From: Cladocopium goreaui
Taxonomy: Eukaryota > Sar > Dinophyceae > Suessiales > Symbiodiniaceae
Length of the DNA stretch: 64,000 bases
NCBI GenBank assembly: GCA_947184155.2
Contig: CAMXCT020003200.1
Location: 1-64,000, forward strand
Direction: 5' to 3'
Positions 2,379 through 57,310 of this stretch are shown in pieces (the stretch's first letter is position 1; each line of letters opens with the position of its first letter). The notes below the pieces were generated by a model, which was not told where the DNA came from, ran no database searches, and saw only the letters and a list, made by a program, of their open reading frames with translations. A program made the position numbers and the translations under genes.

Positions 2379-2432
2379 CTGACTCGCTAGAGCACAAGGC
2401 CACAAAACCGTGACGTGACAGGTTCCAGTTTA

Positions 2433-3045
2433 TGGGTGAAACAGATCTGTTGAGGCGAGAGGTGATAGCTTGTTATCATCTCAGCGCATGCAGATGACAA
2501 CTTGTGTGTCATGTTGGCAGACCCATAAAACTTGAAGGGTGCGGAAGCAACAAGGCTCAATGCGGAAACCAGGGATCCCCCCAGCCAGGATCTGCGAGAT
2601 CACAACGAGCAGCCTTCACGGCATGACATTACACCTTTGAAGCAAACACCGACAACGCCGGGTCACAACAAAGTGGTGAGAAAACTACCGCAGTGAAACA
2701 GGAGAGTGAAATGTGATCTAAGGTGAAAAAGACGGCGCGGTAACAGCACTCAGGTACCCTCAGAGTCCGCTCAGTACTGCTTTTCCCATCATCATATTGC
2801 AACGAAATTGTGAGTAGCACCACTATGCTAGTGCTCTTGCAATGCATCTTTGTGATATGGGAGATTGTACCCACATACGGGAGATGCAGTGCACTCTGGA
2901 AATCCAATGCGATCGAGTTCGCGAAGGGCGAGCTTGACAGCATGGATGCAGGCTTGCAAGCGTTGCGCAGCTCGAGCGGTCCACTTAGCAGGTGTTGAAA
3001 TCAACTGCATTAGATGCGGTCAGGTGATCATGGTAGCTGGCTCAG
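2433..3045. other. Non-coding stretch between Copia fragment and multi-ORF element
   Basis: No supported coding sequence is visible. At 2554-2588 it holds a motif, TGCGGAAACCAGGGATCCCC plus CCAGCCAG, that recurs in the same orientation at 51260-51289, next to the related element fragment there. I take this as a terminal or near-terminal segment of the multi-ORF element. The Copia 5' boundary must lie within or close to the left part of this stretch. Confidence 0.5.
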
Positions 3046-3501
3046 TTACCTTGGTGTAGGAATACGAGCGTTTTTCTCTGCCCAGGAACCAGGCCTATCC
3101 TCAAAGTGTTCAAACAAGGTTCTGGACAGGCAACTTGTGTCAGCTGTGTTAAGGTCCTCAGTCCGGTAATGTTGTATGCTCGCATGCATGAGCTGTAGCT
3201 GTCGACTTATCACGTCATGTTCTGTAACATTGGCACGGGCTTCTACTCGAATGCGCAGACTTCTTATGCAACAGCAGGCTGTGCGAATGTCTCTGCAGTC
3301 TTGCTCGTTGATAACACCTGCAAGAAGTTCTGTTTGCTGCAATACGGCGTGGGTGTCTTCCAAAGTTCTGAGAGTATTCGTCAGTCTGTGCACATAGTCC
3401 TGCAAAAGGAGGAGATCCTGTGCCTCATTGTGAGTCTGGGGTTCTTGAGGCAGGAATACTACTTCACTTGGTTGTACTGAACTCATATGGTCAGGTGGCA
3501 T
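3046..3501 (-). CDS. Small coiled-coil protein of the multi-ORF element (ORF5)
   Basis: 151 residues from an ATG at 3501. I recognise no family. The middle (about residues 25-115) is rich in Leu, Gln, Glu and Arg with heptad-like spacing (DLLLLQDYVHRLTNTLRTLE and later VISRQLQLMHASIQHYR), suggesting a helical bundle or coiled coil. It is the last frame of the minus-strand series. The upstream spacer (about 3537-3580) contains CCATGGCTTGATGTACTTTG, which is repeated at 52185-52204 upstream of the small frame 51733-52014. Position, size and helical character make that frame its probable counterpart, although the two sequences are not clearly alignable by eye. Confidence 0.45.
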   Translation of the reverse strand: MPPDHMSSVQPSEVVFLPQEPQTHNEAQDLLLLQDYVHRLTNTLRTLEDTHAVLQQTELLAGVINEQDCRDIRTACCCIRSLRIRVEARANVTEHDVISRQLQLMHASIQHYRTEDLNTADTSCLSRTLFEHFEDRPGSWAEKNARIPTPR

Positions 3502-3521
3502 TCAAGCAATGCAGGTACTGG

Positions 3522-3600
3522 ATTGCACTGAGCAAAACAGCAACGGGCGCCATGGCTTGATGTACTTTGACATCGCACTAAACTACCATGCAACAATTAA
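3522..3600 (-). promoter_or_regulatory. Spacer motif shared with the second copy
   Basis: The segment CAACGGGCGCCATGGCTTGA and the bases after it (TGTACTTTGACATC) match 52176-52210 almost exactly, while surrounding sequence differs. In both places it lies immediately upstream (minus-strand sense) of the terminal small frame. A conserved non-coding block between diverged genes suggests an expression signal (promoter, trans-splice acceptor or processing site), but the sequence alone does not show which. Confidence 0.4.
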
Positions 3601-3906
3601 GGTAGCAGAACATGAACAAATACAAATTAAAAACCCAGAACAGGATTATGATACCCTTTAGACGTCATGGAACGGACAACTCTCGGATGGGATATTATGA
3701 AACAGATGGCTGGTTGGATTCACCCTGCCAAGTGGTCCTATATGCAGACAGCTCGTCAGTAATCCAATCGCCACTGAGTTGCTTTGAGGCTGACTTGTGC
3801 ACGTTTGCACTTCCAGGTGCTAAGAGACCTCTGCTAGCCAGCAGCTCAAGTGACTGGAATTGTGGTTGGTCAGTCGCTGGTAGCACCTCTTCTTTGATGA
3901 TTAACT

Positions 3907-4470
3907 TCAGCCCATGCAGTGGCTGGGGTTGCTCTTTTTGAGGTCTTGAGGTTGCTGGGATGTAGTGTCCCTGGGTGTTGTGTCTTCAAACCAGGTGGGA
4001 CGGACTGACTGGACTCCTATGGGACTTGCAGAACTCGTAGTTTTAATGCTTTCTCTGCGCAGGCTATGGTAGACGGGCGGGATCATCCATGCCGGCACAA
4101 AGACTGTGATGAACTGCACATTCCAGATAACCTGCAAATTCTGCGGCTTGACTTTAGGCGTGATACATCTTACTTGACCATCGATCACTCTGGTATATGA
4201 TTCAGAGCGGTCGAAGGACGCTGTGACTTTCAGGCCTAGATACAGTTCTCTAAACCAGTATTCCTTAAGCATCATAAAGGAAAGGTGAGGTGCCCTCACT
4301 TCCAATACGTGCGAGGCTGGCATTAGAAGAGTTACCATCATCCATTCAGCTAAGAACTCAATCATTTTTGACTTCGAGTTTAGGGAGGATGGCTTGAACT
4401 GCTCGTAGTGCACCCGCGATGTCCGGAACATGCCTACGCAAGGGCAATCCAACTGTTCGCTTGGCATATT
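3907..4470 (-). CDS. Unknown protein of the multi-ORF element (ORF4)
   Basis: About 187 residues from the ATG at 4470 (the frame opens slightly upstream without ATG). No family recognised. The N-terminal two thirds look like a mixed alpha/beta globular domain with hydrophobic strands (IEFLAEWMMVTLLMPASHVL, LKVTASFDRSESYTRVIDG, VIWNVQFITVFVPAWMIPP). The last 45 residues are Ser/Thr/Pro-rich and probably disordered. It begins about 70 bases after the stop of the large helicase frame, so it may share a transcript with it. Confidence 0.4.
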   Translation of the reverse strand, partial: NMPSEQLDCPCVGMFRTSRVHYEQFKPSSLNSKSKMIEFLAEWMMVTLLMPASHVLEVRAPHLSFMMLKEYWFRELYLGLKVTASFDRSESYTRVIDGQVRCITPKVKPQNLQVIWNVQFITVFVPAWMIPPVYHSLRRESIKTTSSASPIGVQSVRPTWFEDTTPRDTTSQQPQDLKKSNPSHCMG

Positions 4471-4538
4471 CGTCAGCAAAGTAAAGTCTGCACAACTTTG
4501 AGACCCATTGGCTTGGTTTCTCCATGTCTATGGTGATC

Positions 4539-7500
4539 TTACTTAGCTAGAGGCCATGGGTCTGGGAGCGTGGATAAACAATGCAACAATTCGGAGGTTA
4601 GGTCCGCCGAGATGACTGGGAGGGCTTCTCCTTGTGGGCGATAGTCAACTGCAGGTCCCACCGTGCCTTTGCTTCTTTGCGTGTGGGTGCGGGCGGCACT
4701 GTGCACGGCTTGGATGGTGGTTTCGTATTGGCTGACCATGGCCCGTAAGTACTTGCATGCGCGAACAGCTGCTCTTCTTGTGCTTGGCCCATCTTCGGGC
4801 TGGTTCTTGGCAGCTACTGCGAGGATATCTCGTGCCTCTTCTTCTGGCGACCGTTTAGGTTCCGTATCTGGTGCAGGTGCATTGAGAGCGGTACCTTGGA
4901 CTGGCGCCTCTTTTGCGCGTGGCAAGTGGTCTGGGATTGGCAACTTCGGGTGTAATCGCCATCCATCAAAGAAGTATATGCCTGGCAGGGACAGGATCTC
5001 CTGGTCTGGGCCCGTCTGTGCTACTATGTGCCCGGTGCGTGCTTTATACAGTCCTGAGGGTGGGCACACGTAGGTGGGAAAGTGTGTGCGATCAGCAGCG
5101 TAGGCATATAGGACAACTTCAGAGAAAGGGAGATTTTGCTCGGGGAGCCACTTGTGTTGAGTTCGTAAACCTGCTTGAACTTCTTGGAAGCGCTCCCTGT
5201 TCAGCCATCTAAGGTCTGACCCTCGCACCAATATCAGACGATATCTTGCTCGCTTCACTTCGTCGGCTTGCTGATCGTAGTATTGATTGGCAATTGCAAG
5301 GGGAGGGTACTCCCAGGTTGGTGCCGAATTTAGTGACCACCGGCTTAGCTGTGCTAGATTCTCTTGGACTGGGTCAGGGTCAAATTTTGGCATGCTCCAT
5401 GTCGTTTCTCCTCTCCGTAGGCCCCGGATGCCATATGCAATTGCAGCAATCACCTGTGCCATGCCCATGAGTCCCATCATGTCAAGCGGGGAGACCAGCA
5501 GGGTTAACGATTTGGACCGGGTGAGTCCGACAGTGATTCTGCCAAGGCAGTCTTCAGTATCTTCTGTAGGAGAGCCATTGGAGTAATACTTAGTGTTGAG
5601 AAATCCAATACTGGGCTGAGCTACGATTGATACCTGCGCTGTTCCTCCTGCCGAATTGGCTATTGTTTCTACACGCAGGGTGCGAACATAATCCCTTTTG
5701 AGCACGGAGCGGTTCAAATTGTTCTTATGATCAGTTGCTGTGGTCATTGTGAAAAGTCCATCGGCAAATCCAGCATTGTGAGGAAAGGGGCTGAGTACTT
5801 CTGACACAAGAGTTTCTAAATCCGTCGCTACCAAACCGTTGATCCTAGCATTAGTATCCCAGAGCACTAGTTGGAACCCGGGTGGCTTGTCGGGAAGGCC
5901 TCCCGAAGCAAAACTTCCTAGTTCCCATAGGCCATTGATCTTCCTGCAAAGATTAGGATATCTAACTGCAACCACTGCATGGCATGTCACAGGACTAACC
6001 CTGGAGCTGAACGGAAGCATTAACCCCCAGGCATGGATGTCACTTACACCGGCGGTCTGGGAGTTTAAGACTGCTTGTATGTCACCAGCCATGGGCAGGA
6101 GGGTAGCAGCATGCTGCAAAATCCAGGCAAGGCGCACGAGAGACCGTGGAAAATTGAGAGCGGTACCCGCCAGCAGTTCCGAGTCTACGAATCGGGAGTA
6201 TCGTTGCATATTTGGTTGAGCTGCTTCAAATACGGCTTTGAGGCCTGGGAGCACAGTGCTGGCTGCCCTGAGGTCTTCCTCATCCTGCGGCGAGAGGTGA
6301 CTTGTCCATAGCTGACCTAATGTGGACTGGCCTCGTTTGAGGATTTGACTAAGAGCCGTTAAGCCTTCATTCGCCGAACCATCTAGCAGTCGGATCATTG
6401 CATCGGCAAGGTTGGCGGGCATGTAGTAGTTGCGGTCGCTTCGCAGGCCATGCTTTTTAGCTAACAGTAGTTGTCGTGACCGTTTGGCGTTGCGAGCTGC
6501 CCGATCAATACCGCCCGGTGTCTGCTCAGAGTCTCCTGTCCACAGGACCAGGGGTTGCTGTTTCAGCAGGCTGAGAACTGCAATTTCGCGGTCAGTGCCA
6601 TACTGCTGGCCTTCATCAATGACCAGGAGGGAGAGCTCTTGCATGAATCCACTCATTGTGGACCATTGCATGGTAAGATCCTGGGCTACCGTTCCCCCGG
6701 TGGCTAATATTAATTGACACTTGTTCAGCATTTGCCTTCTTTCTCTCGGGTGGATATCAAATTTCGTGTGCGAGTAACTGCTTTTGTTGCGCTCTTGGTC
6801 TCCCACCAGCCTACCTATGCGCCCAAACCCCCCCGACGGGGGGTCGAGCCATAGGAGGAGGTCCGCAAAGGATCGAGTGCCGGAGTTCTCTTTGCAAATG
6901 AACAATATTTTGAGGCTGTCGGTAGTGTCGATTTCAATCAAGGCCAGGATGAGGATTGCCATCGATTTCGACTTGCCTGCTCCGAAAAGCCCTTGGATGC
7001 ACAGATCTAGCCTGTTGGTGAGCAACGCCATTGTCACTGCGCAGAGTGTGCCTAAAACGTGTCCGTCAAGCTCAGCGGCAAAGGAAAGTGCAGTGGAGCG
7101 AGTCCAAGGGTGAAGCTCGCCCTCCACGTGACATGGAATTAGCACTAGGCGGAGCAACTGGCCGCACAAATGCAAGAAATGTGATCTTTTGTTGCCCTCC
7201 ATTCCTTCCACTGCCGTTTGGACATTGTAGATGCCTAATCCCAGGTGGTACCTGCACGGGGGGGTTTGCGCGACAGCGGTAAGCTCTCGGGTAGGCTTAG
7301 TACATCCGAACATCCACATTGTATTTAGAAAGAAGGTCTGGGGGACCGGGCTTTTCTGTCCCTGGACGGTCGCATCAATGGGGTCCAGGTGCTGGCCGGA
7401 GGCACTATACAGGTCTTGGAGGGCTTCAAGTTGTTCCTTTGCAAAAAACTCAATGGCCGGTCCTGAGAGGAAAGCAACTTCGATGAATTTAGGGTTGCAC

Positions 7501-9173
7501 TGTCTGTATATGCGTGAGGCAGCCAGCTCATCCTTTTTTTTGGCTGCGCGTGGCGTGATGGCTAGGACCAAGCCAAACAGGATTTGAAGGTCATCTCCAT
7601 CATAAGCTAGTGCGTCTGCTGTACCCACCATGGCAATAAGCCTACCCGTGCCAATGGGGCTGACTTTGTGATGGTGCGCATCACTGGCTAGCAGTCTGAA
7701 CACTTCAGTTTTACCCAGGCTTGGGTGTCGGAACGCGAATGCATCCTGTCCGCCTTTGACTTTCCAGTGTCCAAACTCGCTGCCTTTGAAGAGGAATTCA
7801 AGGGCGATGGGTTGCGATGGTTGCCGGACAGGTCCTGCACTTTGCATTGTTAACCCTGTTTCATTATAGCCTTCATTTGGGCTGAGCATGGGCAAGTAGT
7901 AGTCTAACATGTAGACAGCCAGGGGCAATTGCAAGGTGCCAAGGAAATGTTGTACCATGGTGGTATAGTTGAGCAACTTGGTCCTTGAGGAGATGGTGAC
8001 TGTTGCCAACGTGGCTAAGTATTGGGTTGCCTCTTGCTCAGTTTTGACCTCTGAATTATGGGTAGCAATATGGGTAACAAGTGCCTGTGTCGTGGTTTCA
8101 GGTAGCTCGCACATTTCCGCTAATTCACGCAGGAGTTTTCTGGCAGTTCTTGGGAGCTCAAAGCTGCACCATGAGATCAGACGGAGGGGAGCCTGTGAGT
8201 ACACTTCGAAGGGGAGCACTCCAGGGGTACCTTCTAACTGCTCCATATCTGGTCGTCCTTCTGGGAGGGCAACTCTTGTCCAATGCGAGTAGTTATGTTG
8301 TGCAGTACCGAGGTACGCTCTCCATCCTGTGATATGCGTAATTTTAAAGCCCCGTTGCCTAAGCAGCTTGATGTCATGGTTCGACGGGTTCCATACGCAG
8401 AGCCTGTCATCTGCATGGTGAATGAGGTGGATCTCTCTCAGCTGAGATAAATTGCATGTCGTGAGCAGCGATGGTGGTAGCGCAATGGCTGCTAGCACGG
8501 TTTTGCCACCAACGTCTGGGAATTCTGAGAGGATGGTTTCCCATACCATTCCTGCATACGAGCCAGCGCTGTGCCCTCGAATGTAGATGGAGCCTACCAT
8601 GTATCCTGTTAATCTCAGAAGATCTACTGGGCGGATTTCAGGGGGCAGACATACTCCGACTAGCGGATGTGCAACTAGTAACTTAGTGAAAAGTCGCAGG
8701 CCATGTATGTACCCGGGCCACGGCGGTTTCCTGTGTGCTGGGATGATGGGACAGAAGCGCAACAGTTTCATGGCCCGACTGATGATCTGCGCTTGCAATT
8801 GGTTCGCACTGGGCATTCCTAAGACGCGGCACCAGAAGTGTGCACCTATGGGAAACATGGCGATGTGCAGGAGCAAGTATTCTTGTGTGTGAGCAGTGCC
8901 TGCTACTGTGCCAGCTCTTGCATTCCAATCGTCCTGTTTGCTAAGGGATGGCCCGTAAACATGTGCTTCCTTTTTGCAGGCTAGCAGTACGTCCCAGTCT
9001 TCATCAAGTTCTCCTCCACCCAACCCAGTGCACTGAACTTCCAGGGACCCTGGGTCAGCGTCATTGAGTTGCCAGGAGGTGTTATCCATGACAGTGATTT
9101 TCCAATCAGTGTATTGGGGGTCAGTATGGCTAGCAAGCACTTCGTTGATGGCTAGTTCTGCGTTGCTGGGTCA
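4539..9173 (-). CDS. Alpha/beta-hydrolase-like plus superfamily-1 helicase protein (ORF3)
   Basis: The frame is open for more than 1530 codons. Numbering from GTG at 9140, the N-terminal part has a serine-hydrolase nucleophile elbow GHSAGS (189-194), then HADDRLCVW (about 242-250) and a HNYSHW histidine region (about 282-287). These have the order and spacing of an alpha/beta-hydrolase Ser-Asp-His triad. The second half is an SF1 (Upf1/ZNFX1-type) helicase: Walker A GLFGAGKSKS (717-726), Walker B LLVIDEGQQ (838-846), motif III LWTGDSEQTPGG (866-877), motif VI VGLTRSKSLTLLVSP (1204-1218). A charged helical tail follows. No ATG occurs before about residue 18 (9089), and the frame overlaps the end of ORF2, so it may be made by frameshifting from ORF2. 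The helicase could unwind RNA or DNA; the hydrolase substrate is unknown. Confidence 0.8.
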
Positions 9174-11137
9174 ATTTCCAGTCGCCGTTGCAGCGCTTCC
9201 AGCAGAGGGAGGATTGGGGCACTGGGGAGCTGGAGGCTCGCATGCTGACCGCAGAAAACAATGGCAGGATCGCAAGTCTTGGGCCAAGGTGTATGGTCAT
9301 TGCTGTTGTTGGGGGCTTCCACCGGTGTCCAAAGGCTCTGGAGAAGCAACACCTGCAGCTTGGTAAGGCTTCTGTTTTGCGGGACATGCGGCTTGGCGAT
9401 TATTTTACTCCCTCTAACAAAATCGCAGCCTGTGGGGTGTGTCCATAACGGTGGTGCCTCGTCGACTCCTATGAGCGACACAGCAAGCGGTTGCAGCCCT
9501 TTGCTTAGCCACTGTTGGAGTTGGTGTCCTAGGCCTACTTTACTCCCATGGAAGGCGTGCACTATTGGCGGCAGGCTATACCCTATGGTTAACTCCTTGC
9601 TTTGGAACAATTTGTCTCCTGGAAGACAGAGTATGGGGAAGTCGGCTGGGAAAACTGACAGAGGGGAGAGTGCACCTTGTTCGAAAATGGGGCGTGCCCA
9701 GGTAAGGAATGGCGGGGTCCGCTCGACAAAGTCCGGTCTAAGGTATCGGCCATCCCCGTGACGTGGCCATTCTCCTCGCTCCGGGATGGGGAATGCAATG
9801 GCTCCCGCCCATTCGCCCAACATTGCCCATGCATGTGTCCAGTCAAGTGGGGTTCTAGCCCTACAGCCAAGTAGGGGGGTGAGAAGCAGTCCTCCCCTCA
9901 TTGCTTCCGCAGGGTCTTCTGGCACAGCGGTTGTAGCTAGGAAACTGGCTCTGCTATCCTGGAGTGCGGTAACCCAGTCATCTGCTGTGCGATTGGCAGG
10001 GTGGGCTATTCGTCGTGCCTTTGGGGCGGGTGCAGCACTCGGAGAGGAGCTTTGGGCAGGGGCTGATGGCATGCATGCTTCCGAGGTTGCTTGGGCCATT
10101 TCTACATCAGTTGCCTCGGTCGGGATGTGCCCTGTCACAATGATCAAGCCGGCATTAAGTTCAGCTTTGGCTTCTGTGGCAAGGAGTACTGCTGGAGGGC
10201 ACTGGTTAGAGCTGGCCATTGTGTTATGTTGCATTGCTGCGGCTCTGCTTGCCTTATCCGTCATGAGATTGACTAGCTCGGCTATTTCGAACAATGAGGT
10301 CGGCACGCAGTCAGAGTCGATGAGAGCAAAATTCACAGTGGGGAACATTAAACACAGCGCCTCCAGAGCTGCAGCACCAGCCCAGGTATAATGGACCTGA
10401 TGCAAACCTGTGTCAGCATGAATGGGAAAATGGATCGCAGTAGTTTTCTCCCGGTAAGGGCCAGTCACTGTACATCGGCCTTTGATCCAGGGTGCGAAAT
10501 GCGGCCAGTAGGCTGGAGGATCAGTGCCTGACAGTTTGCGGTTGTCCACATAAACATAGACGGTGGCATACTGAGGTAACCATGAGAGATTATCTGTTAT
10601 CCACTGGAAGAGCGTTCTATGATGGACCTGGCTGGCTGCGGGGCGTTGGATGCCGTTCCCTTCGTCCACCATGAGTGCAGGGTATGTCAGGGGTGACCGG
10701 GGCATTCGACAGGAGCCGACATCGTCCCATTTCCACCTCTGTTTTATGTCGTCCATGCCGAGCGGGGTCTCAACTTCTTTTTGCGAGAGGAACAGTTGGT
10801 CAAGCTGGTGGCTTAACTGTGTGACCTCTTGGACATTCAAGAAATCGATAGGTGCGGCAATTTCCCACTTCTCCTTCGGGGGAGGCTCAGTCCCTTGTTG
10901 GAAATACGGAACGTCATCATCTGTCTCGAGGGCGTCAAAGTATTCTGTATCACTGTGCATTGACACATCCTCGACTGTGTTATCTGGGGCGGTTGGCTCT
11001 GCTGGTTCGATGTCTGTCTCCGAGTCATCAGGGTCAGGCGACGTCAAGGAAATGAACCTATTTGGTGTCATAAGCTGTTGCAGCATGTTGACGCCAGCTT
11101 GACCCTGAACAACCGGTGCCCGGGTGTCAGGTGCCAA
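9152..11137 (-). CDS. Unknown protein with DSD glycosyltransferase-like motif (ORF2)
   Basis: 661 codons open from 11137; the first ATGs are at about 11086 and 11071 (MLQQLMTPNRF). The N-terminus is acidic and Ser/Thr-rich (about 30-75), followed by a globular region containing VNFALIDSDCVPTSLFEIAE (about 269-288). A hydrophobic strand ending in D-S-D plus downstream Pro resembles the DxD metal/nucleotide-sugar site of GT-A glycosyltransferases; this is motif-level evidence only. A linker rich in Ala, Ser and Pro follows, then a second globular part (about 400-640) with many Trp and Pro. The stop (TAG, 9152-9154) lies inside the start of the open part of ORF3, in a different frame, so the two may be one polyprotein joined by a -1 shift or separated by an indel. 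Confidence 0.55.
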   Translation of the reverse strand: MAPDTRAPVVQGQAGVNMLQQLMTPNRFISLTSPDPDDSETDIEPAEPTAPDNTVEDVSMHSDTEYFDALETDDDVPYFQQGTEPPPKEKWEIAAPIDFLNVQEVTQLSHQLDQLFLSQKEVETPLGMDDIKQRWKWDDVGSCRMPRSPLTYPALMVDEGNGIQRPAASQVHHRTLFQWITDNLSWLPQYATVYVYVDNRKLSGTDPPAYWPHFAPWIKGRCTVTGPYREKTTAIHFPIHADTGLHQVHYTWAGAAALEALCLMFPTVNFALIDSDCVPTSLFEIAELVNLMTDKASRAAAMQHNTMASSNQCPPAVLLATEAKAELNAGLIIVTGHIPTEATDVEMAQATSEACMPSAPAQSSSPSAAPAPKARRIAHPANRTADDWVTALQDSRASFLATTAVPEDPAEAMRGGLLLTPLLGCRARTPLDWTHAWAMLGEWAGAIAFPIPERGEWPRHGDGRYLRPDFVERTPPFLTWARPIFEQGALSPLSVFPADFPILCLPGDKLFQSKELTIGYSLPPIVHAFHGSKVGLGHQLQQWLSKGLQPLAVSLIGVDEAPPLWTHPTGCDFVRGSKIIAKPHVPQNRSLTKLQVLLLQSLWTPVEAPNNSNDHTPWPKTCDPAIVFCGQHASLQLPSAPILPLLEALQRRLEIDPATQN

Positions 11138-11730
11138 GTGACTAGCCGAAGATAGTGAATGCTATACGGGCAGCGAGTGCAAAAGTATATCAACAGGATT
11201 GGCTAGGCTAAGGAAGCCCTGAACACCCGGCACCCGGGGTCAGGGTTCCCCCTTGCAGGGCCAATGCGTTGGTGGTGAACCAGGTAGGAAACAAAACAAT
11301 CAGGGTTTGTCTTACACCTTAGTGTGCGAATTGATATCAGATGGCTGACCTAGCTATGAAAACTAGTGGAGCCACAAAAGCTGCAGTGCGAACAATTGAG
11401 CCACTAACAGTTTATGCAACCTACTTACCCAAAGTACATGTTAGTTCGACAGACGTTGAGGTGACCAACGGTGACAGGACCTGGGACACACACCTAGCAT
11501 AGAAACTTAGCAGACAGTCCAAACGAATTGAAAAACCCATAAATCCCTTGCCCCAGTTTATGGGGGTCATACTTAAGTGGGTACTCTCCCTTACGGTAGG
11601 TTTGGGGGGTATTAGCCTGGCACGCAGCTGCTTTTCTCTTGGCGCATCTACGGAGTAGGCGGCATTAGAAATGGCACTGAGCAGGTGATTTCACACAGTC
11701 AGGTGCACACAGTGCTAGCTGTCTGTACGG
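11138..11730 (-). other. Non-coding spacer between ORF1 and ORF2 of the multi-ORF element
   Basis: About 590 bases without a credible coding frame. It contains short repeated words (CCCGGCACCCGGGG at about 11227-11240 is near-palindromic) and a purine/pyrimidine-mixed segment with GTTTATGGGGG. It presumably carries expression signals for the downstream ORF2/ORF3, but no promoter consensus is identifiable; dinoflagellate promoters lack a reliable consensus. Confidence 0.4.
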
Positions 11731-13302
11731 TCAGTCAATGATTTCCATTTCCATGTCTGCAACAGGAGAGGGTTGCGGAGTGCCTGGTGAGTGGTCATCT
11801 TGCATTCTTTTAAGGCGCTTTCTAATGCGAGTAAGGTGCTCGCGGGCATTGAGGAGTCGCGTTTCATAGGAGGCCACTCTTTCACAGGCTGTCTTTTCCA
11901 TGTTCTGCAACGTTGGGATGTCCGCTGCGGCGAGGTCGACGTCCTGCATGGAGTCACTGGCGGGCTCAGGGCTGCTAGCACCAGCAGTGTCAGTTGCTTG
12001 AGTCTCTGGCGATGCTTTGGGTGTATTTGCACGCGACGATTCTTCTGTTGATGTGTCGTCGTGGGCTGCGAGCTGTTCCGGAGGTTGTTGTTGCTCATCA
12101 TCTTTGCTGTGAGTTGCAGAGTGAGAGTCAGAGGATAACACGCCGGTACCCGGGGTATCCGTTTGCGCTTTGTTCGCAGGAAGGGCCGACGGTGGGCCTG
12201 GTCTTCTGTGAAATAATGATTGTGCACTGATTTTGTCAGGTGGCTTGCTTTGCTGCGGGGTTAGAGCTTCTGCCACCACGCCTGTACTGGGATTGGACGA
12301 TGCGGCGGTTGCTGTATTGTCTGTACTTTGTTGACTTGCGGCCAGCAAATTGGCTGGTTTGTGGGTCTGTCTGGTCGCCGCTGGTCGGCTATCTGCCAAC
12401 GTTTGTTGGTTTGCTTGATGAATAATAGACTGCAATTCCATGTATTGCCGCTCTCGGTCAGCCACTTGCTGTGGCGTGCTCTGAATACATTTAGGGTCCT
12501 GTGGAGCATCTGCTTGCATTTTTTGTACTGGCTGTTTTGCTGCGGATCGCTCCGTCCACCTGGTCGGTAGCGGCGGAGGCGGAGGCAGTGCCCGTTTCGC
12601 ATGTTGTGAAGACTTATGTTGGTCAATGCGTGGCTGAAGTTCAGCTCGCAGTTCCTGCGGGTACGGCTCTCCGGTCTCAGCTAACCACTGTATGGTTTCG
12701 TCATGCATCCACAGGGTGGTTCTCCACAATGGGATGGTATTGTCTTCATTGACCCAGAACAATGGCTTAGGCGGCAGCAACTCATGGGCTTCTACTATCA
12801 AAGGCAGCAGGAAGGCTAATCTTTTTTGATCATGGAAAATCATTGCTCCGTTCGGGTGAACTTTCAGGTGAGTATGGTTCCACACAAACGGTTGCACAAC
12901 ACGCATGGTGTGAGCGTCGCGATTAAAGATGGATAGTCGGACTTGGGCATACGGTGGTGCAGCACCGTAGACTTTTCCATCCCAGGGTGGTTCAAGAAAG
13001 CCCCACCGCTCTTTTCGGCCGTAATTAACGGTATCCCAGAAGGCAGGGTCAAACTCTTTCTCAAGGGCGTCGGCAAGGGTCGAAAAGATAATCCATGGCA
13101 CCTCGTCGATATGCAAGTGGTATTCTACCAACGTGAAATTATATGTTGTCTGGCAATCTCCTACCCATATTGTGCCCCTCACTGCAAGAAAGCGAACGCT
13201 GCTGGCTGCTGGCATGTCCCAATTCATTTCAGCCGATATGTCCAGTAGGTGTTGATCAGAAACACTGATTTGGCCAGACGGGAAAGGGTTTTGCCTCGGC
13301 AT
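11731..13302 (-). CDS. Unknown protein with globular head and proline/serine-rich tail (ORF1)
   Basis: 523 residues from ATG 13302. Residues 1-220 look globular, with aromatic-rich strands (FLAVRGTIWVGDCQTTYNFT, PWIIFSTLADALEKEFDPAFW, KPLFWVNEDNTIPLWRT). Residues about 235-460 are low complexity with poly-Pro, Gln, Ser, Thr and Ala. The last 60 residues form a charged helical segment (CERVASYETRLLNAREHLTR) compatible with a coiled coil. This head-linker-coil layout is common in structural or Gag-like proteins, but no family match is claimed. It is the first frame in the minus-strand series. Confidence 0.5.
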   Translation of the reverse strand: MPRQNPFPSGQISVSDQHLLDISAEMNWDMPAASSVRFLAVRGTIWVGDCQTTYNFTLVEYHLHIDEVPWIIFSTLADALEKEFDPAFWDTVNYGRKERWGFLEPPWDGKVYGAAPPYAQVRLSIFNRDAHTMRVVQPFVWNHTHLKVHPNGAMIFHDQKRLAFLLPLIVEAHELLPPKPLFWVNEDNTIPLWRTTLWMHDETIQWLAETGEPYPQELRAELQPRIDQHKSSQHAKRALPPPPPLPTRWTERSAAKQPVQKMQADAPQDPKCIQSTPQQVADRERQYMELQSIIHQANQQTLADSRPAATRQTHKPANLLAASQQSTDNTATAASSNPSTGVVAEALTPQQSKPPDKISAQSLFHRRPGPPSALPANKAQTDTPGTGVLSSDSHSATHSKDDEQQQPPEQLAAHDDTSTEESSRANTPKASPETQATDTAGASSPEPASDSMQDVDLAAADIPTLQNMEKTACERVASYETRLLNAREHLTRIRKRLKRMQDDHSPGTPQPSPVADMEMEIID

Positions 13303-15050
13303 ACCAACAACAGGTACCCTGCAGTGGCAGCACTCTCCGAAGTGGAGGCAATTGCACGGCGTCTAGTAAGACCAAACGACAGGAACCACTCGCAATTGCG
13401 TGGCAGCGGCCAAACAACGAAAGGCGGGCAGCGGCCAAACAACGAGGACCCCATGTCGGCTTGAAAGTATGAACGGGCGAGCAAATTAGAAGTTGGATAA
13501 AAATGAGGATCCAGTCAACCCTGGCTTATGCAGGTGTGGTGTCCTCACAGTTCGAACCAATGGCTGCTGACGGAGACAGTGAGTCATGTTCGGTCCAGGC
13601 AGAGTGAACAAAATGCCAGACACTGCAACAGTAGGAAATATGTGCAACATATGACCGGTGACAGGATTGGAGGGACGGTTCATTGTGGTTCAGGAGTAGA
13701 TTCATGACATAGGAGGGAGTAGCGAGGGGCAGGGCAAGTGGTGGGGCCGTAGCACATGACAGACGGGGGTGGCTATCTGTGTAAGATATGCTAGAAGAGA
13801 TGGACACTGAGGAGCATCATCAGCAAGGAGTACACATTATTGAGAGTATAGATAGCAGTCGGGAGATTGGGAAGAGGGTGGCAGTCATGAGGGCATGAAC
13901 CATGTGAGATGAGGACCTGGTAGGGTGAAAACGGAGCTGAGCCCTCACCATTACCCAAGGTGCCCTTGGGAACAGTAGAGGAATAACAGACACATGTGTC
14001 ATGTTCCTACCGATGTGAGGGGCACAGCAGGGGGTGAGGGCATGCGGGACGACTCAGATAGATGATGGAGTGCTGGAAAACCCTATGTCATCAAACCCTG
14101 TGTCGTCCAGGGCATTCATAGTTCCATCCAACTGGTACTGCAATCTCATGGTCAAAAGTTTGACAGGATGGACAAAGAAAGATCTGCTGGAGTAAGGCAC
14201 GAACGTGGTCAGCAGTTGCGCTAGTGGGCTTGCTGACCAAGGAGAGCTTCACAGCTACATGCCGCCATCTAGATGGGGCGAGGCAAAGGCTATTTCAGCG
14301 CTACTTCAGTACAGGACACTAAGATAGCACCGGCTTGGACCAGTATACCGCATTGTAGTGTAGTAGTTAGACTCGCCATTACCCAAGGTACCCATGGGAA
14401 CAGCAGCTGTCCTTAACTGCGAGCATTCAAGGCTCTGTCAAGCTCTGAGCATGAGGTGCAATGGGCGGCGAGAGTTCTATCTACCGAAACTCGGCGGCCC
14501 TGGATGTCCCACCGGCTCAACTACCCTGCACGAGGGAGGCGTCATCGTGGTATTTCTCTGTCCTCTAAGGGCAAAATGTTGCACACGTTGCTTCACGATG
14601 TCTGTTGCACACGCTGCCTTGTCATTGTCCAGTAGCAGAGGTCCTGCATGGTATCGCCAGGTTACCAAGAGGCAAATTAGTCGGCAATCGATTTGTTGAG
14701 CTTTGTAACTAGACAAGGAAACAGGCCATGATAGCTACTGGCAAGACGCTTGCTGGAGCTGTGTTACCAGAGATTAGGAAGCACCAGTCTTTCCTGCAGC
14801 TGTTGGCAGCATGTCTGAAGGGTTCATTGACTTCTGCAAGTTATTGCATAATTATTAAACAATTAACTGGTCACTCATTACTACCACGAGGCCCGCAATC
14901 AATACTCTCCAAATGGATATGTTCGAAACCAAAAATAATAACATTGAGGTCATGCAGTAAAGGATAATCATCGGGCACTAAAGGGGGCTAGGAAAAACTG
15001 CATGTTCAACGTCTTCCCTTTGGACAGATAGTGATTTCGATTCTACTCTA
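13303..15050 (-). other. Non-coding upstream region of the multi-ORF element
   Basis: About 1.7 kb with no convincing coding frame on either strand. It contains a dispersed pair of ~32-bp repeats (13946-13978 and 14374-14405) with internal dyad symmetry, and a short direct duplication GGCAGCGGCCAAACAACGA at about 13402 and 13427. It lies upstream of ORF1 in minus-strand sense and may be a leader or terminal region. The boundary to the satellite region at about 15050 is uncertain. Confidence 0.35.
13946..14405. repeat. Pair of ~32-bp repeats with dyad symmetry
   Basis: Copy 1 (13946-13978) reads CCATTACCCAAGGTGCCCTT followed by GGGAACAGTAG. Copy 2 (14374-14405) reads CCATTACCCAAGGTACCCAT followed by GGGAACAGCAG. 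Each has an internal near-palindrome, CCCAAGG...CCTTGGG in copy 1. The sequence between them is not repeated. Confidence 0.6.
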
Positions 15051-15945: not shown

Positions 15946-16210
15946 CACATAGGTCTTGAAACATAGTGTTCTGAGACAAAGTAGGGGGGGCGGGGGGCAC
16001 AAAAAACGATTCGCGCAAGAAAAAATGTTCCCAGCCACCCTCCCGTTAGAGGTATTGAACTTAAAATGGCCACCATTGGCATTTAAATTCAAAGACACCG
16101 TAAATTGTTCTGAAGATATTTCTTAAACCTAAACAGAACAGCAAAAAGAGTAGGGGAAAAATATAAAGGTGAACATAGTCACAACATGTACAAAAAGAAC
16201 ATGTACAACT
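15946..16210. other. Non-coding sequence left of the LTR element
   Basis: About 265 bases, AT-rich, with a G-run and no recognisable gene. It ends at the target-site duplication TGCCG (16211-16215). Confidence 0.5.
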
Positions 16211-16215
16211 TGCCG

Positions 16216-17799
16216 TATGGAAATTTGACACCCTGTGTGAGCACCCTTTGGGTAAGGGTGAAGCGACATGCCATCATCATTGGTTGTATAGTTATGCACA
16301 GAGGATATGTGGAAGGTTACTGCAAGAAGTCATGGAGGATTGGTAGACAACACTCCGCTTATTGCGGAAGGAATCTTGTATGTGACCATCCTGTGTCACA
16401 ATATTCTATTGGCCTTCGGACTTGTCATTTCTGACATCAGGATGATGTCATTGATCAGTGTTGACCAGTGATTGTGGTATATGAATCAGTTCCACATCTT
16501 ATTCTGGATTCGACTTGAGTCTGGTACGGCTTATTGCCTGGACTGAAAATACCTACATTGGTTTGACATTGGAATTGTTTATTATGTCTTCGACGCTGAG
16601 AAGCTCATTCTCTCCAAGTGATGAGAACACAGCAAGAGTTTAAGCTAGCTGGAAATATCTGATGGAGAGAACCTATTATGCTTTGAACTTTGACCTTGAG
16701 ATGCATTGGCATTGTGAGGACAATGGCCATATTTGGGCATCTTATTTGTCTGAGAGTTTTGTGATGAGATGTTTTGGTATTGTGAGGACAATACCTACAT
16801 CATCGTCATCGTGGCCTATGGATCATGCACTTGATCTTATGGTGTGCTCTTTATCGTTCCTGAGATGACTTTGATTATCTCTATGAGGACGACATTGTTT
16901 TGACACAACTTTGATCTACACTGTGGATTAGCTATTACAGTGGTCGAAAGACTTCAGCGATACAACTGTATTTGGCTGACCTACATTGACAATGTCGAAC
17001 AGAACATTCTATTCTACATTGAGGTTGGAAGCTGTGAGATGCTATCTCTATGTGGAAGACTGATTTGGAGAAGAAACTTTGTGTCCTGACTGTGTTTTGT
17101 ATCCAGAAGAAGGTTGTACAGACACCTTGTGTGAATCACTTCGTTCTTGAGAAGTTAGTCAGCTTATGACTATTGAGCTGGTTATTCACGTTTGGATGAG
17201 AACCAGTTTGTTTTGAGAACTTTTGGAAGTGTTTCGATGGTTTTGAATTCATCTGGTGAAATTGAGTTTTGTAGACTTCTAGCAGCTGTAATAGTTTCAA
17301 CAAACCTTTATTTGAAGAACTTGAGGTTTGTTAACTGGAAATCTGAAATCGAGTTTACCAGTTGAGACATCGGCTCGAAGGACTGGTGTCAGAAGTTCAT
17401 TTAATGAACAGAAGCTGCTGTGTCACATAACTTGACATAAGACAGACCAACAGAGGGAACTCGATCGTCTTTCTTCCCTTGTTGTGTTTTGTTTGTTTGC
17501 TTGTTGTGTTTTGTTTGTTTGCTTGTTGTGTTTTGTTTGTTTGCTTGTTGTGTTTTCCTTTGACCGATCGTGTTGCGTCTGGAGCGAAAAGAAGGAGCTT
17601 GACGTCAGCATGTGGGAGTCGAGGGAGAAACATTCCTTTTGACACGGTATTGCTTTAGTTTAATTAGTTTAGGGACTTACGCGCTGCGCTTGTGTTTGGT
17701 GTGCGTGGTTGACGTACGCGTTTGCCCGCGTAGTTCTGTAGGAATTTTGGAAGAAGCGTTGGATCTGACCGTGGATCTGTGCACGGCGCTTTTTCTACA
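16216..17799 (+). repeat. 5' LTR
   Basis: Direct repeat of 33558-35154, with identity very high by eye apart from a few substitutions and small indels. It contains a 22-bp tandem array (17484-17555) also present in the other LTR. No protein-coding frame within it is convincing. Promoter and polyadenylation signals are expected here from LTR biology but cannot be pinpointed. Confidence 0.93.
17484..17555 (+). repeat. 22-bp tandem repeat inside the 5' LTR
   Basis: The unit TTGTTGTGTTTTGTTTGTTTGC is reiterated a little over three times. The same array occurs at about 34834-34908 in the 3' LTR, so it predates the insertion. Confidence 0.85.
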
Positions 17800-17811
17800 T
17801 GGTAGCGGAGC
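17800..17811 (+). promoter_or_regulatory. Primer-binding site
   Basis: TGGTAGCGGAGC begins at the first base after the 5' LTR and is absent after the 3' LTR. It starts with TGG, complementary to a tRNA CCA end, as expected for minus-strand priming by a tRNA whose 3' end reads GCTCCGCTACCA. The tRNA identity was not established. Confidence 0.75.
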
Positions 17812-18440: not shown

Positions 18441-18554
18441 CCAGGCAAGTTGTCGGAGTTCTTGAGTGTGTAAGGTTTGAGAAATTACTGGAGTGTGGTT
18501 GGAACTGTAGCGTTTGAGCTCAAGGAAAGTATTGCCACGTAGTCTATACCAGGA

Positions 18555-27524: not shown

Positions 27525-27567
27525 ACCCACCCTACTTTCACTACATTCACCCACCCACGCTGCGGGG

Positions 27568-35437: not shown

Positions 35438-35705
35438 GCTGAACCTGCAAACGCTCAGATTTGTGCGCCAACATAAAACAGGGGCCCTAACGCAGACATT
35501 TCGTCGTAAACGTTGCCGTCTCAAAAACACAAAACCGAAAAATGTAACGACCTGGCGGAAGCCATGAAGGCGTTGGACGGAAAAAAACACAAAACCGAAA
35601 AAGGTTCAAACACCAAACTGCAAATGCAACGACTGGAAAAAGCACGTCCCAGCAGCGCATCCTTTTTCCTAACACGAATGGAGGATTCAGATAGCCTCGT
35701 TAAGC
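35438..35705 (+). repeat. Dispersed segment paralogous to 15714-15945, with internal insert
   Basis: Nearly identical to 15714-15945 except for an extra ~60 bases: an insert (35543-35582) containing GACCTGGCGGAAGCCATGAA flanked by two 20-bp copies of AAAAACACAAAACCGAAAAA (35523-35542 and 35583-35602). The paralogue has this 20-mer once. Confidence 0.85.
35543..35582 (+). mobile_element. ~40-bp insert with 20-bp target duplication
   Basis: The insert ends in an A-run and is flanked by a perfect 20-bp duplication. The same core, AACGACCTGGCGGAAGCCAT plus GAAGGCGTTGGACGG, occurs at 55759-55801, also followed by an A-run. It looks like a very short retroposed RNA fragment inserted by a LINE-type mechanism. 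Confidence 0.6.
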
Positions 35706-51151: not shown

Positions 51152-51732
51152 CATTGTGTCATCTCATCTTGGTATGGCCACAAACAAAAACACAAAAAGG
51201 GGAGAACACCGACACACACAAGGCCATACCCGCAGGTGAGAGAAGCAACACAGCACCATGCGGAAACCAGGGATCCCCCCAGCCAGCATCCCCGAAGCTG
51301 CCATCCGCCAAATCCGCCAATTGAGCTGTATCTTAGATAGTTGCACAATCCTCTAGCTACGAAGTTAGCCAAGCGCAAAAAGCCTTACTGCTTCTGCCAC
51401 ATACAGCCAAAGGTGCCAGCACGTCATCGGAAGAGCTAAATGCGCAGACATCACCACGCACAGATATGAATATAAATCTGCCAACTCATGAAAACCAACT
51501 CCAAGAGCATTAGCGTATCGAAGTCTACCCTGGAAACCTTCCCAGCGCACCGGATTTGGCACCCTGCCCAACAAACAAGTACCTTCATGGTCGGGCACAA
51601 GAAATTACCCAAGAGCAGGATGATCGGAAAAGCACTACTGAGCGGACTGAGCGCACCCGGTGGGCTGTTTCACTGTCCGTTTCACTTAGATCTTTCTCAC
51701 GATAGCTCTTGTTTCACTGTCCGCCTCACTTT
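51152..51732. other. Flank and terminal segment of multi-ORF element copy 2
   Basis: It contains ATGCGGAAACCAGGGATCCC plus CCCCAGCCAG (51259-51289), identical to the terminal motif at 2557-2588. The rest is unrecognised, with short CA-rich words. No gene. Confidence 0.5.
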
Positions 51733-52014
51733 TTAGTTTTCACCACTCTCGTTGCGACGCGGCGTTGCCGTTGTTTGCTTCGAAGTGACCATAGGTGAGT
51801 CGTTATACCTTTGCTGCTTGCGCCTTGTGATCTCAAGGTCAGTGACCCGCTGAGATGGGACGGATTGGATACCCTGAAGCTTCTGGCATGCTTTGTCCAG
51901 CAGTTTGGTGGCGGCATCGATTTCACTGGTAGTGATCTGACACAGGGTCAACTGAGTGATTGATGTTGCTAAGCGATTGACTGCGGCATCTTTCATTGGA
52001 GTAGGGCGGGCCAT
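51733..52014 (-). CDS. Small coiled-coil protein (probable ORF5 counterpart)
   Basis: 93 residues from ATG 52014. Residues 10-50 have heptad-like hydrophobics (VNRLATSITQLTLCQITTSE...LLDKACQKL); the rest is basic and polar. It occupies the same place relative to the terminal motif and spacer motif as ORF5 in copy 1, although direct sequence similarity is weak. Confidence 0.4.
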   Translation of the reverse strand: MARPTPMKDAAVNRLATSITQLTLCQITTSEIDAATKLLDKACQKLQGIQSVPSQRVTDLEITRRKQQRYNDSPMVTSKQTTATPRRNESGEN

Positions 52015-52311
52015 CTGTAGGGTGCAACTGCACGCAGGGTGTCCTGCAGGTAGAGCGGCTGCACAGTCAAGCCATCAAGAGCGGTATTGTCTGCTAATTG
52101 GAGCCAGAGTTGAGAGCGACGTCCATTAGGAATTCGTATACAACCGGTCAGGGTTGGTTTGAAGTCCGGCAAACGGCAACGGGTTCCATGGCTTGATGTA
52201 CTTTGACATCATCCTAAGCTAACGGCTACTAGTGTCAACTAGTGGTAGTTAAGTAACCCGTGTCCCCCCCCCCATCCCAATTTGCTTCTCACTCCTACCT
52301 TTATCTGCAGT

Positions 52312-53350
52312 TTAACAGTAGAGTGATCTCGATTGACTCACCACCTTAGCTGAGTCACAGGTGTACAGGCCAACCATGAGTACCTCATGTTGACCGGTAG
52401 CACCTATGATGTGGGGCACTGTAGTTGCCGGTGTTTGATGCGTGACAACCGTGAGGACCTCACGTTGTCTCCTGGCATTTATTGGAATTGTGAATTTGGT
52501 TGCGCAGGGGCGTGTTACTGCGCTTCGGCGGCTGTGGCCTCCGGAGGAGCTAGCTGCTCTCTCCGAGGGTGCTGGGTCATCGTTTACCTCTGGGTTGATC
52601 ATTTGCGCAATAACTGGGTGGTTCTGTTTGTCTTGCATGATCCTAATAATGGCCTGGATGAAGGCATTGGGGGCTCCCACCAAAGCTTTTGCCTCCGCTA
52701 GTGGCCGATCTAACACAATGGCAATGAGCATTTCTCCCGCATCTTTCTTGATCAGGGCTGGTCTTCCAGCCTGCATCCGCTCCAGGATTGCGACCGCTTT
52801 GTTTTCACACAGGTTTCGTTCCCACTCTTCTATAGCTCGTTGCGCCAGTGATCCAGTTTGTGGTGGGACCATTCGGGCCGCTGGGGTTCCCAGTGCCGAA
52901 AGGAATGTATTATCGGGCAATGTGGCAGCGGGCACTGCTGCAAGGGCCGTGACGGCCCGGCGTGTGTCACTGTCCTTCACCTCATAGGAGGGGGATGTGA
53001 TGTTTTCTGTGCGATGGCTGACTCTGAGTTTGCCGACAGTCGTTGTAAGGTGAAGCCTGGCCTGGGTTCCATGTATTTCTTGTTCCACACTGCATTATGA
53101 GACCATTGGGGTGCCTTGCGATTGATCTCGACCAGGTCTCTCTTCAGGTCGTATTCTCCAAGCAAGTTGTCAAGCTCTTGTAAGGTTGTGCCTCGATGGG
53201 CGCAATTCTGCCGGACCAGACAGCACAGGGTGGAAAGCCAAGATCATGAAATCGGTAGTTGGTGAGTGGCTGACTGCCGACTGCACTAGGAGGGTGCCAG
53301 AAACCATTGTTGGTTCGCATACTTCGCATCCAGTCGTGATTGCGGCTCAT
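52312..53350 (-). pseudogene. Frameshifted unknown protein gene of multi-ORF element copy 2
   Basis: Three consecutive minus-strand frames give protein-like sequence that appears to belong together: about 53350-53160 (SQPLTNYRFHDLGFPPCAVW), about 53180-52980 (LLGEYDLKRDLVEINRKAPQ; YMEPRPGFTLQRL) and about 52990-52312 (VPAATLPDNTFLSALGTPAA; AGEMLIAIVLDRPLAEAKAL). At least two frameshifts separate them. The C-terminal part has an Ala/Leu-rich helical region and a Ser/Arg-rich tail. No family recognised. This gene is not evident in copy 1. Confidence 0.5.
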
Positions 53351-54709: not shown

Positions 54710-57310
54710 GTAACCCTGTCTCTTTCGCCCTAGAAAATAGTTGGACTACTACCCTCAAATCTGACAAGCTACACTTTCTTGAGCACACTACACTCCGTAT
54801 GACGTAGATACTCTCCCCCCTTTTTTATTAGGGCTATTCTCCTTGACGCCTGTTTCACCCCTCCCTTTTTCGTTTGACTTTTGCCACCTTTCTTCGCGGT
54901 TGTCTGGTTGGCTTTCTGTCCTTTGAGTGTACTCCGTTTTCGTTTTCCGCTTGTTTCCGGGTAGTGTGTTGGGGCCCTTGTCAATCGGCCTGCTCTGTTA
55001 ATCGGCCTGCTCTGCCTGTCCTGGTGCGTCGGTTGTGGTTTGGTTTGTGCGTTTTCCCGTTGTTGTCCTGTGGTGTTGCGTGAGTGTCTTGGCCTTTGGA
55101 GGGTGTTGTTTGTGTCTCCCTCTGTTGTTCTGTGCGTTTTTCTTGTGTTGTTTGGGGTTGCTTCGGATTGGCTCGTTTTCTTCCTGGCAGCGTCCCCTCC
55201 CTCGTCCTGCCCGCCCCCTTGGTTGGTCCCTTGGGGCCTTCTGGTCCAGTCAGTTTTCTGCTGGTCCCTCCCTCCGGGTATCTGGTTGTATCTTGCGACG
55301 GCCCGGTTGTCATGCCTGTGGTGGCTCCTGTCTTCACTTTTCCTCATCAACAAAGGCTTTGGCCCTGTGTGGGGCTCTGCCCTCTACACCATGTTGCGGG
55401 TGTTGTTCAGGTGCTTTTCTTTCCTGCACTGAGGTATTCGCCCTCGTGATCCGGAACCCCCCTCTGGACACCGTTAGAGCTGCATGCGCCCACCTCCTTG
55501 GCCCGTGCTGCTTTCTTCCCTCCTGTCCTTTGCTGCCTTTGGCTTGTTTGTTGTGTGTTGTTGCTGGTTGTGTTTTGTTTGTTTGGTTTTTGCTTTTGGT
55601 TTTGATTTTGGTTTGTTTGCGGTGACTTCGTGACGGCCTACTGGACTGTGTACAGGTCCTTACCAGTTCACTCTTGAGGCCCCTCAATCTGCAGATGGCC
55701 ATGTATATGCGTTAATTAATAAATTAACCCTATTTTGCAACATGCAATTGAACGTGTTGAACGACCTGGCGGAAGCCATGAAGGCGTTGGACGGAAAAAA
55801 ATCTCCTGTCCTTTGCTGCCTGCGCCTTCTCCCTCTTGCTGCTGCTGGCCTCCGCTTGCTTTCTCCCTTCTCGTCCCTGTTCACACTAAGGCTATCATGG
55901 CCCGCTACTCAGTCTTTTAGTGAAGTGGTCTTTTTTGATTTGCTTTTCTGGCCTCTTGTTGTTGTTTGTCTGGTGCTTTCTGGCCTTTCTTCTTGTTTTG
56001 TTGGTGTGTTTTGTTGCTGTGCCTGTTGTCAGCCAACTGAGGTGACTAAGGATTGCAGAGTGCTGCCGGCCCCATCAGTACACACACACACACCCGCCAC
56101 CGTGACTTCCTCCCTCCCCTCGCGTATCTTTTGGAGGTTGGCTTGTTCTTGAATTCGTTTGTTTTTTTTGTTTGTCTTGGCTGTCCTGTGACCTTGTCCC
56201 TCTGGCACGTCTGTCTAGTTCTGTAAGGGAAGTAGGAAATAGCCGGCCGGAGCCATGGACCAGGCTGCACTGTAGCGAGTAACACTGGCGCGATCCAGTG
56301 GCACTCTCTGTTGGACAGCCCGGGGCGCCCGTGAGCAGCAAAGTCTGCGCACATGGATCGTGAGTTTCTTTTTCGGATTGGATGGTATCCAGCTGGCCCA
56401 CTGGTGGGTGAGTGGAATTTGTTCTGGATTCCAAGGCTGAACCCTTTGGCTGCTACGTTGCAATGCACTGCAGGTATTGTACTGAGACGAAGACACTCGG
56501 GGACTCGGGAAGCACCTGAACAGTTCTGCAGGTATTTTTTCAGCTTGGCGCCCTCTGACAGTGCACGTTTGAGAAATTGCTGGCTGTTAGCTACACAATG
56601 TTTTACTGACTTTGCATGTTGTGCCAGGATTGTTCTCCCTTTCGACCTGGCACGGTATTCATGTCTACCCAGTGACGAACTTGGTTAGTGGCGGACCACG
56701 ACTGGTCACCTACCTTGCCTTATGTGACCGTCCTTGCCACAGCCACGGAGCTGCTCCCCGCAAGGGGGGCGGCACAATAGCAATCTGGCCGCCAACAATA
56801 CACTCTCCCTGCTCATGAATACACCGTTCGGTACACGGCAAGTTCTTTTAGTCTTGGACTGAACACCTGAACAAGAACCTGTGAGAGGACTCTGAGAGGC
56901 TAAGACGCAATTGTGTACAGCTAATGCGTTCCTTTGTTGTCTGTCAGCAGCAACAATTAAGAACGCGTGTTTCACCTTACTGGGTAGCAACCAATTCGTT
57001 TGGTGCATTTTCTTGAGTTGCGACACAGTGGCTTTATACCACTGTGGCCATGGCAAATCTTTGTTCGTGGTTGTTTTTGTTGGGCCCTGCCCCTTTTGCT
57101 GTTTGCTTTGCTTCTCTGCTGGATGGCGAAACGCATATCTGGCTGGGGGATCTGCGTGTCGCCTTTTGTGTGGTTGTCTCTGTGTTTGTTATTTGTTGTT
57201 GATTTGCCATGCTACATGACCACAGGTGTCAATGTAGATTTTATTTCAAACTGCTTCTTCACATGTAAGGACCGAGCCTTAGAGCGTGATCGGCCATACC
57301 TGAGGAAAAA
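54710..57310. other. Low-complexity and unique sequence without recognised genes
   Basis: 54780-55630 is T/G- and C-rich low complexity that opens long artefactual frames on both strands. 55630-55700 is a dispersed repeat (inverted copy at 42832-42899). 55759-55801 is the conserved ~40-bp core also found as an insert at 35543-35582. 55900-57230 is unique with many short T-rich tracts. No homologous gene was recognised. Confidence 0.5.
55759..55801 (+). repeat. ~40-bp conserved core (second copy)
   Basis: AACGACCTGGCGGAAGCCAT followed by GAAGGCGTTGGACGG and an A-run, identical to the insert at 35543-35582. Translated it reads NDLAEAMKALDGKK in both places, but there is no evidence that it is expressed. 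Confidence 0.6.

Follow-up and report, generated by a model that had tools for sequence, protein, structure and literature searches.

In this study, we examined a 64,000-nucleotide stretch of Cladocopium goreaui DNA (contig CAMXCT020003200.1, positions 1 to 64,000; the window, in what follows), in which a first-pass annotation had seen an undescribed multi-gene repetitive element on the minus strand. We propose, with a probability of roughly 0.84, that the window carries a dead, 5'-truncated copy of a dinoflagellate long interspersed nuclear element (LINE), a retrotransposon without long terminal repeats (LTRs), of about 30 kb, in which a reverse transcriptase (RT) and three further open reading frames, ORFs A to C, belong to one unit. 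A search with the 1,533-residue frame of the window, which contains the helicase, against the assembly from which the window comes (1.17 Gb, 6,202 contigs) gave at least 30 matches including the window's own, all 97–100% identical and 26 of the 30 free of internal stops, a lower bound since the best candidates alone were scored. The suspected repetitive and mobile character is borne out. Ten of the 29 other helicase copies were read with their flanks, and the whole unit was read end to end in copy C3857.

Architecture of the unit and constraint on its genes

From leader to tail, copy C3857 spans 29,767 bp. It opens with a spliced leader and two leader relicts. Next come two N-terminal frames that overlap and weakly resemble a protease (Peptidase_C39, E 0.014, below the Pfam cutoff), a methyltransferase-like frame, a frame with an apurinic/apyrimidinic (AP) endonuclease and an RT, and an RNase H frame. 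After a further 3.7 kb free of long frames, ORFs A, B and C follow in this order, and the 3' end closes the unit. The RT frame is recognised by Pfam (RVT_1, 6.7e-15), with the AP-type endonuclease upstream of the RT at residues 157–342 (Exo_endo_phos, 3.8e-10), and it matches four PDB sequences at E ≤ 0.01, one named L1 ORF2p and the others bearing general RT names, which we take to be R2-type and L1-type RTs. The RNase H frame falls slightly short of the Pfam cutoff (RVT_3, 3e-4). In 7 of 48 RT matches the stop-free frame surrounding the RT measures 2,097 codons, about the sum of both frames, which suggests that RT and RNase H probably form one ORF in intact copies. The earlier view that the element has no recognised polymerase does not hold, since AP endonuclease, RT and RNase H sit upstream in the unit, and the truncated window copy simply lacks them. 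In L033 (13–3474, residues ~860–1090), a stretch after RNase H contains EIDLKGSFYELV and VWLHDGFLV motifs that look palm-like by eye only; a polymerase-palm reading of this HDGF stretch received no support from Pfam or PDB.

The leader of C3857 is an exact 22-nt dinoflagellate spliced leader, behind which lie two degenerate relicts of 12/15 each. Both relicts were reached by none of 20,000 shuffles and one by 14 of them, while 8 of 2,054 background stretches reached one. In a spliced leader RNA gene the leader would be followed by GT; no GT follows it here.

ORF B is a single frame of 2,625–2,739 codons in 7 of 10 other copies and is broken in the remaining 3. Judged from motifs and modelled folds, it is predicted to join a GT-A-glycosyltransferase-like domain, an alpha/beta-hydrolase and an Upf1-like superfamily 1 (SF1) helicase, with ORFs A and C flanking it. 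The window copy and its parts are located as follows.

2393..15047, minus strand: window copy of the element, 5'-truncated and internally deleted (blastn of C3857, 97% over 10.8 kb, further pieces 90–96%)
13303..15047, minus strand: region free of long frames that separates the RNase H frame from ORF A, containing internal repeats of ~300 bp
11731..13302, minus strand: ORF A, 523 codons counted from its ATG (other copies have a collinear frame)
9161..11161, minus strand: ORF B residues 1–667, the earlier 'DSD' frame (tblastn 97.6%)
9509..10570, minus strand: GT-A-glycosyltransferase-like domain with DSD motif, ORF B ~198–551
4542..9170, minus strand: ORF B residues 665–2207, the earlier largest frame (tblastn 99.2%)
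8262..9056, minus strand: predicted alpha/beta-hydrolase domain, ORF B ~703–967 (limits from fold rows such as 6avv)
8559..8576, minus strand: GHSAGS nucleophile elbow, ORF B 863–868 (nearly invariant in a 14-row alignment)
5283..7292, minus strand: predicted Upf1-like SF1 helicase domain, ORF B ~1291–1960 (GAGKS at 6969–6983)
3791..4546, minus strand: ORF B residues 2205–2455 as three further pieces, residues 2456–2734 deleted
3046..3501, minus strand: ORF C, 151 codons (frame recovered in other copies, and selection test)

The motifs first reported from the 1,533-residue frame (GHSAGS, HADDRLCVW, HNYSHW and those of SF1 type) are present, as is the DSD motif of the adjoining frame, and the proposed fusion of a hydrolase to an Upf1-like SF1 helicase stands, both domains lying in ORF B. 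For the hydrolase we found the alpha/beta fold as well as the order nucleophile–acid–histidine, D919 (8406–8408) and then H956 (from 8297) coming after GHSAGS, and the helicase combines SF1 motifs with an Upf1-like fold. Pfam gave DEAD at 1.5e-4 on the window frames, below the cutoff, with a weak DEAD match in 4 of 14 alignment members, and a PDB profile search with ORF B returned just two irrelevant matches.

Selection was assessed from the ratio of nonsynonymous to synonymous differences (pN/pS), pooled over pairs of copies and leaving out the N-terminal frames; tests with 15 rows comprise 15 of the 18 copies offered, three having been dropped, presumably as non-plus-strand matches. For ORF B the ratio was 0.103 over the whole frame, 0.111 in the glycosyltransferase-like domain and 0.077 at the C-terminus (11 rows each), and 0.099 in the hydrolase, 0.103 in the middle part and 0.071 in the helicase (15 rows each). 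It reached 0.279 in ORF A (10 rows), 0.117 in the RNase H part (3 rows), 0.105 in the RT (2 rows) and 0.163 in the 3' part of the methyltransferase-like frame (2 rows). Individual pairs that differ by few changes gave values as high as 0.95 in the hydrolase and 0.60 in the middle part. Every ORF examined is under purifying selection, and pooled values near 0.1 show that the domains of ORF B matter. ORF C was recovered as a frame by tblastn in 10 of 10 other copies (143–151 of its 151 residues), its ATG lying immediately 3' of a TGA in 10 of 11. Because the frame is kept and its pN/pS is low (0.189, 11 rows) next to the values of the two alternative frames (1.21 and 1.26), ORF C is, by these sequence measures, a real gene.

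Copies, integration and competing explanations

Copy C1348 is collinear with C3857 from the methyltransferase-like frame through the tail, with 97% identity along 21.7 kb and 93% along the final 1.7 kb, and the differing flanks of the two mark them as separate insertions. Six contigs occur in both the list of 30 helicase and that of 48 RT matches, and in all six the RT lies upstream on the same strand, at a spacing of 11.2–13.0 kb in four of them (C3857 included). All ten copies read share a fixed 3' end, GGCGTTGGACGG followed by 6–10 A, while their 5' edges vary. Copy C5839 starts inside the unit and interrupts, in antisense orientation, a diverged helicase gene; an exact repeat of 16–18 bp borders it on both sides. 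When its flanks are joined with one repeat removed, 302 residues can be read in a single frame without a break. A different diverged helicase gene harbours C2668, whose 12-bp repeat is imperfect (one mismatch) and whose two sides match relatives in order and not as a single aligned stretch. Target duplication, 5' truncation and a fixed 3' end, the hallmarks of LINEs, are all found among the copies.

Diverged relatives also form the downstream flanks of C6004, C2430 and C1348, so that, together with C5839 and C2668, at least five of the ten copies abut or split their kin. This suggests nested clusters or self-targeting, with mere abundance as the alternative. In the flanks of these five copies (L009–L014, L025–L028), the diverged relatives are recognised by helicase or RNase H frames. 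In addition, several tails follow each other 460–675 bp apart in L016 (7937–9086) and L019 (1575–2058), as very short 3' ends in an array, and the tail of another copy lies ~220 bp upstream of the start of C3857.

Several observations weigh against assigning all parts to a single LINE. C3857 is not itself intact, its N-terminal frames being broken, its RT and RNase H frames shifted and its ORF B short (2,625 codons), and the methyltransferase-like frame, in which PCQDL is seen by eye, scores weakly (Pfam E 0.24; DNMT3 in PDB, E 0.58). The leader-bearing 5' end was read in C3857 only, no leader was found at the predicted starts of C1435 and C536, and no target duplication joins the leader start of C3857 to its 3' flank, the longest shared word being 5 nt. 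Among the seven copies with both edges compared, from which C6004 was left out since its edge is an internal deletion and no true 5' end, the duplication is exact in C5839, imperfect in C2668 and absent from C3857, C1348, C5970, C685 and C2430; of the shared ends and target duplications first sought across copies, the former were thus found throughout at the 3' side and the latter, in exact form, once. C2430 and C685 moreover adjoin LTR-like direct repeats, for which reason they were left out of the truncation count. Of the 10 copies read, no more than two showed the RT, and 900-bp spot tests at its predicted place in C1435 and C536 did not find it, so that these two are truncated before the RT, rearranged or a separate element. 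The RT–helicase pairings on which the single unit relies number five.

These points bear on an explanation by two separate elements, a methyltransferase–RT LINE and an independent helicase element (or passenger moved in trans), which share a 3' end or often adjoin each other. The missing duplication at the leader-bearing end slightly weakens the one-unit LINE and raises this alternative, with which the rarity of the RT among helicase copies and the two spot tests agree. The RT and helicase matches of C685 and C3669 are, furthermore, 28.8 and 19.7 kb apart, and the 3.7 kb that follow the RNase H frame could conceal a junction. However, the 97% collinearity of C1348 and C3857, whose flanks differ, continues through exactly this stretch, the spacing and strand of RT and helicase are kept in four contigs, none of the varying 5' edges of the helicase copies is recurrent, and the RT frame and ORF B are similarly constrained. 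Two elements are, on this balance, unlikely.

A smaller chance still is left to 'recycled' host genes, which would have multiplied as their trans-spliced mRNAs were retroposed, with no self-mobilising element. A leader with relicts is the published mark of such dinoflagellate retrogenes, as far as the consulted part of that review goes (PMC6050394), but the unit brings its own endonuclease, RT, RNase H and several ORFs, and is present in at least 30 near-identical copies that insert into their own relatives. Separate, spliced, single-copy host genes, the finding that was to count against a mobile element, were not seen in this genome, where the ORFs are uninterrupted, repeated and joined to a common 3' end. 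Equally improbable is the virus or virus-derived replicon proposed at first, for which speak SF1 helicases known from RNA viruses, coronavirus nsp13 among the weaker fold matches of the helicase model (E 1.8e-5 and above) and a chlorovirus protein as best glycosyltransferase fold match, but against which stand the nearness of the helicase model to cellular Upf1, Ighmbp2, Sen1 and Dna2, a single alignment scan of viral contigs, not aimed at capsid genes, in which 0 of 87 pattern matches was confirmed as a relative, a comparison with BFVD, made for the N-terminal and not the helicase model, without match at E ≤ 0.001, and the hallmarks of retroposition.

The window copy and its surroundings

The five long minus-strand frames described initially exist (3046–3501, 3907–4479, 4539–9140, 9152–11137 and 11731–13302), but they do not represent five genes, the second to fourth being fragments of the single ORF B between ORFs A and C. 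According to tblastn, frameshifts break ORF B of the window into residues 1–667, 665–2207, 2205–2264, 2264–2415 and 2405–2455, the second piece lying in a different frame from the first owing to a frameshift near 9165. By blastn against C3857 the copy extends from 15047 to 2393 instead of from 13302 to 3046, corresponding to element positions 16037–29487 in a numbering that begins 2 nt inside the 29,767-bp unit; missing from it are ~16 kb at the 5' side, ORF B residues 2456–2734 and approximately the last 280 bp. Frameshifts, an internal deletion and the loss of sequence at both ends make the window copy a pseudogene. No spliced leader occurs within the window. Adjoining the lost 3' end, copia-like gag/pol frames were seen by eye on the minus strand at 1–2429, of which 1668–2405 gave no match in Pfam; an insertion there may have removed the 3' end of the copy.

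Three further stretches of the window are related to the element:

51235..53216, minus strand: second, diverged copy, 3' part, with ORF B residues 2497–2716 and pieces of the 3' untranslated region (UTR)
55544..55801, plus strand: related element, 3' end, exact GGCGTTGGACGGAAAA at 55783
35546..35587, plus strand: related element, final ~40 bp, exact GGCGTTGGACGGAAAA at 35569

The recurrence noted at 51–53 kb, including its terminal sequence, is hence genuine and consists of ORF B residues 2497–2569 (70% amino-acid identity) and 2568–2716 (60%) besides the 3'-UTR pieces.

Elsewhere in the window, two DIRS-like elements were recognised by eye on the plus strand (19565–26843 and 43550–50053), each with a tyrosine-recombinase-like frame, a gag/zinc-finger frame and an RT frame that opens with methyltransferase-like motifs; on these stretches Pfam gave only RVT_1 at 4.4e-5, below the cutoff, in 47123–50053 and CCCH-finger matches in 45890–47104. 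Dense repeats with a 68-bp period fill 57311–61843, one family having 39 listed copies, two of them at 53.6–54.0 kb, and 35916–39127 holds repeat arrays of 55-bp period interspersed with TTCGAAG/CTTAAG-rich palindromic units.

A model for mobility and its relation to known elements

In the model we favour, the LINE would be transcribed, perhaps within a host polycistron, and trans-splicing would add a capped leader to the transcript, so that the element need carry no 5' promoter and every full-length new copy would inherit a leader holding a fresh splice acceptor. The endonuclease would then nick DNA and the RT would start at the fixed 3' end (target-primed reverse transcription), mostly stopping early. 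As a guess, the most likely role of the Upf1-like helicase is to remodel the RNA of 30 kb or the RNA:cDNA duplex, and that of the glycosyltransferase-like and hydrolase domains is to modify a target in the host or the nucleus. Dinoflagellate DNA is rich in 5-hydroxymethyluracil, the distribution of which is reportedly addressed by one paper on Breviolum minutum, and base J is a sugar-modified base of kinetoplastids. As the element carries both a methyltransferase-like and a glycosyltransferase-like domain, it is conceivable in this setting, and quite improbable, that it sets DNA marks itself, the glycosyltransferase-like domain sugar-modifying 5-hydroxymethyluracil in new cDNA or target in the manner of base J while the leader replaces the promoter.

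LINEs usually measure a few kilobases and hold one or two ORFs. An esterase in ORF1 of CR1 LINEs and the nesting of Zepp LINEs in each other recall the hydrolase domain and self-nesting described here, in elements that are much shorter and without the other domains. The closest description is that of SymbioLINE-Dnmt (de Mendoza et al. 2018, PMC5890265), in which ORF1 encodes a methyltransferase and ORF2 an endonuclease and RT. As far as the consulted portion of that paper describes it, both are intronless dinoflagellate LINEs with a methyltransferase ORF (in our case a weakly scoring methyltransferase-like frame) upstream of the endonuclease–RT ORF, target duplications, conserved UTRs and purifying selection. 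SymbioLINE-Dnmt is stated there to be without poly-A tails, where the present element has just 6–10 A. The words 'helicase', 'ORF3' and 'spliced leader' do not occur in its main text; in a comparison by description and not by sequence alignment, the present element goes beyond it by ORFs A–C (~12 kb) and the 5' leader. SF1 helicases have also been acquired by the insect LINEs TRAS and Jockey, where, in the sections consulted (PMC5563155, PMC6338049), they are of plus-strand RNA virus type and lie within ORF1 or ORF2; the present helicase, in contrast, is Upf1-like in fold and has its place in an ORF apart, ~2,734 codons long, next to the glycosyltransferase-like and hydrolase domains. Bdelloid rotifer terminons, giant retroelements that can reach 40 kb and whose accessory ORFs include GDSL esterases/lipases, share giant size, accessory ORFs, mostly 5'-truncated copies and head-to-tail arrays, but are characterised as endonuclease-deficient, Penelope-type and telomeric (PMC6431247); the AP endonuclease and LINE-type RT place the present element outside that class. 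A literature search, thin in subscription journals and judged mostly by titles and abstract openings, found no paper on this architecture.

A constrained LINE of this length, with a 12-kb glycosyltransferase-like/hydrolase/helicase back end, would widen the range of cargo carried by target-primed elements and prompts one to ask how an RNA of 30 kb is copied. The 5' spliced leader would tie LINE mobility to the recycling of dinoflagellate mRNAs, for which the consulted part of a review suggests Ty1/copia elements as driver (PMC6050394), and the RT of the present element would be a concrete alternative candidate. It should finally be noted for annotation that abundant Upf1-like genes in dinoflagellate genomes can be transposon genes.

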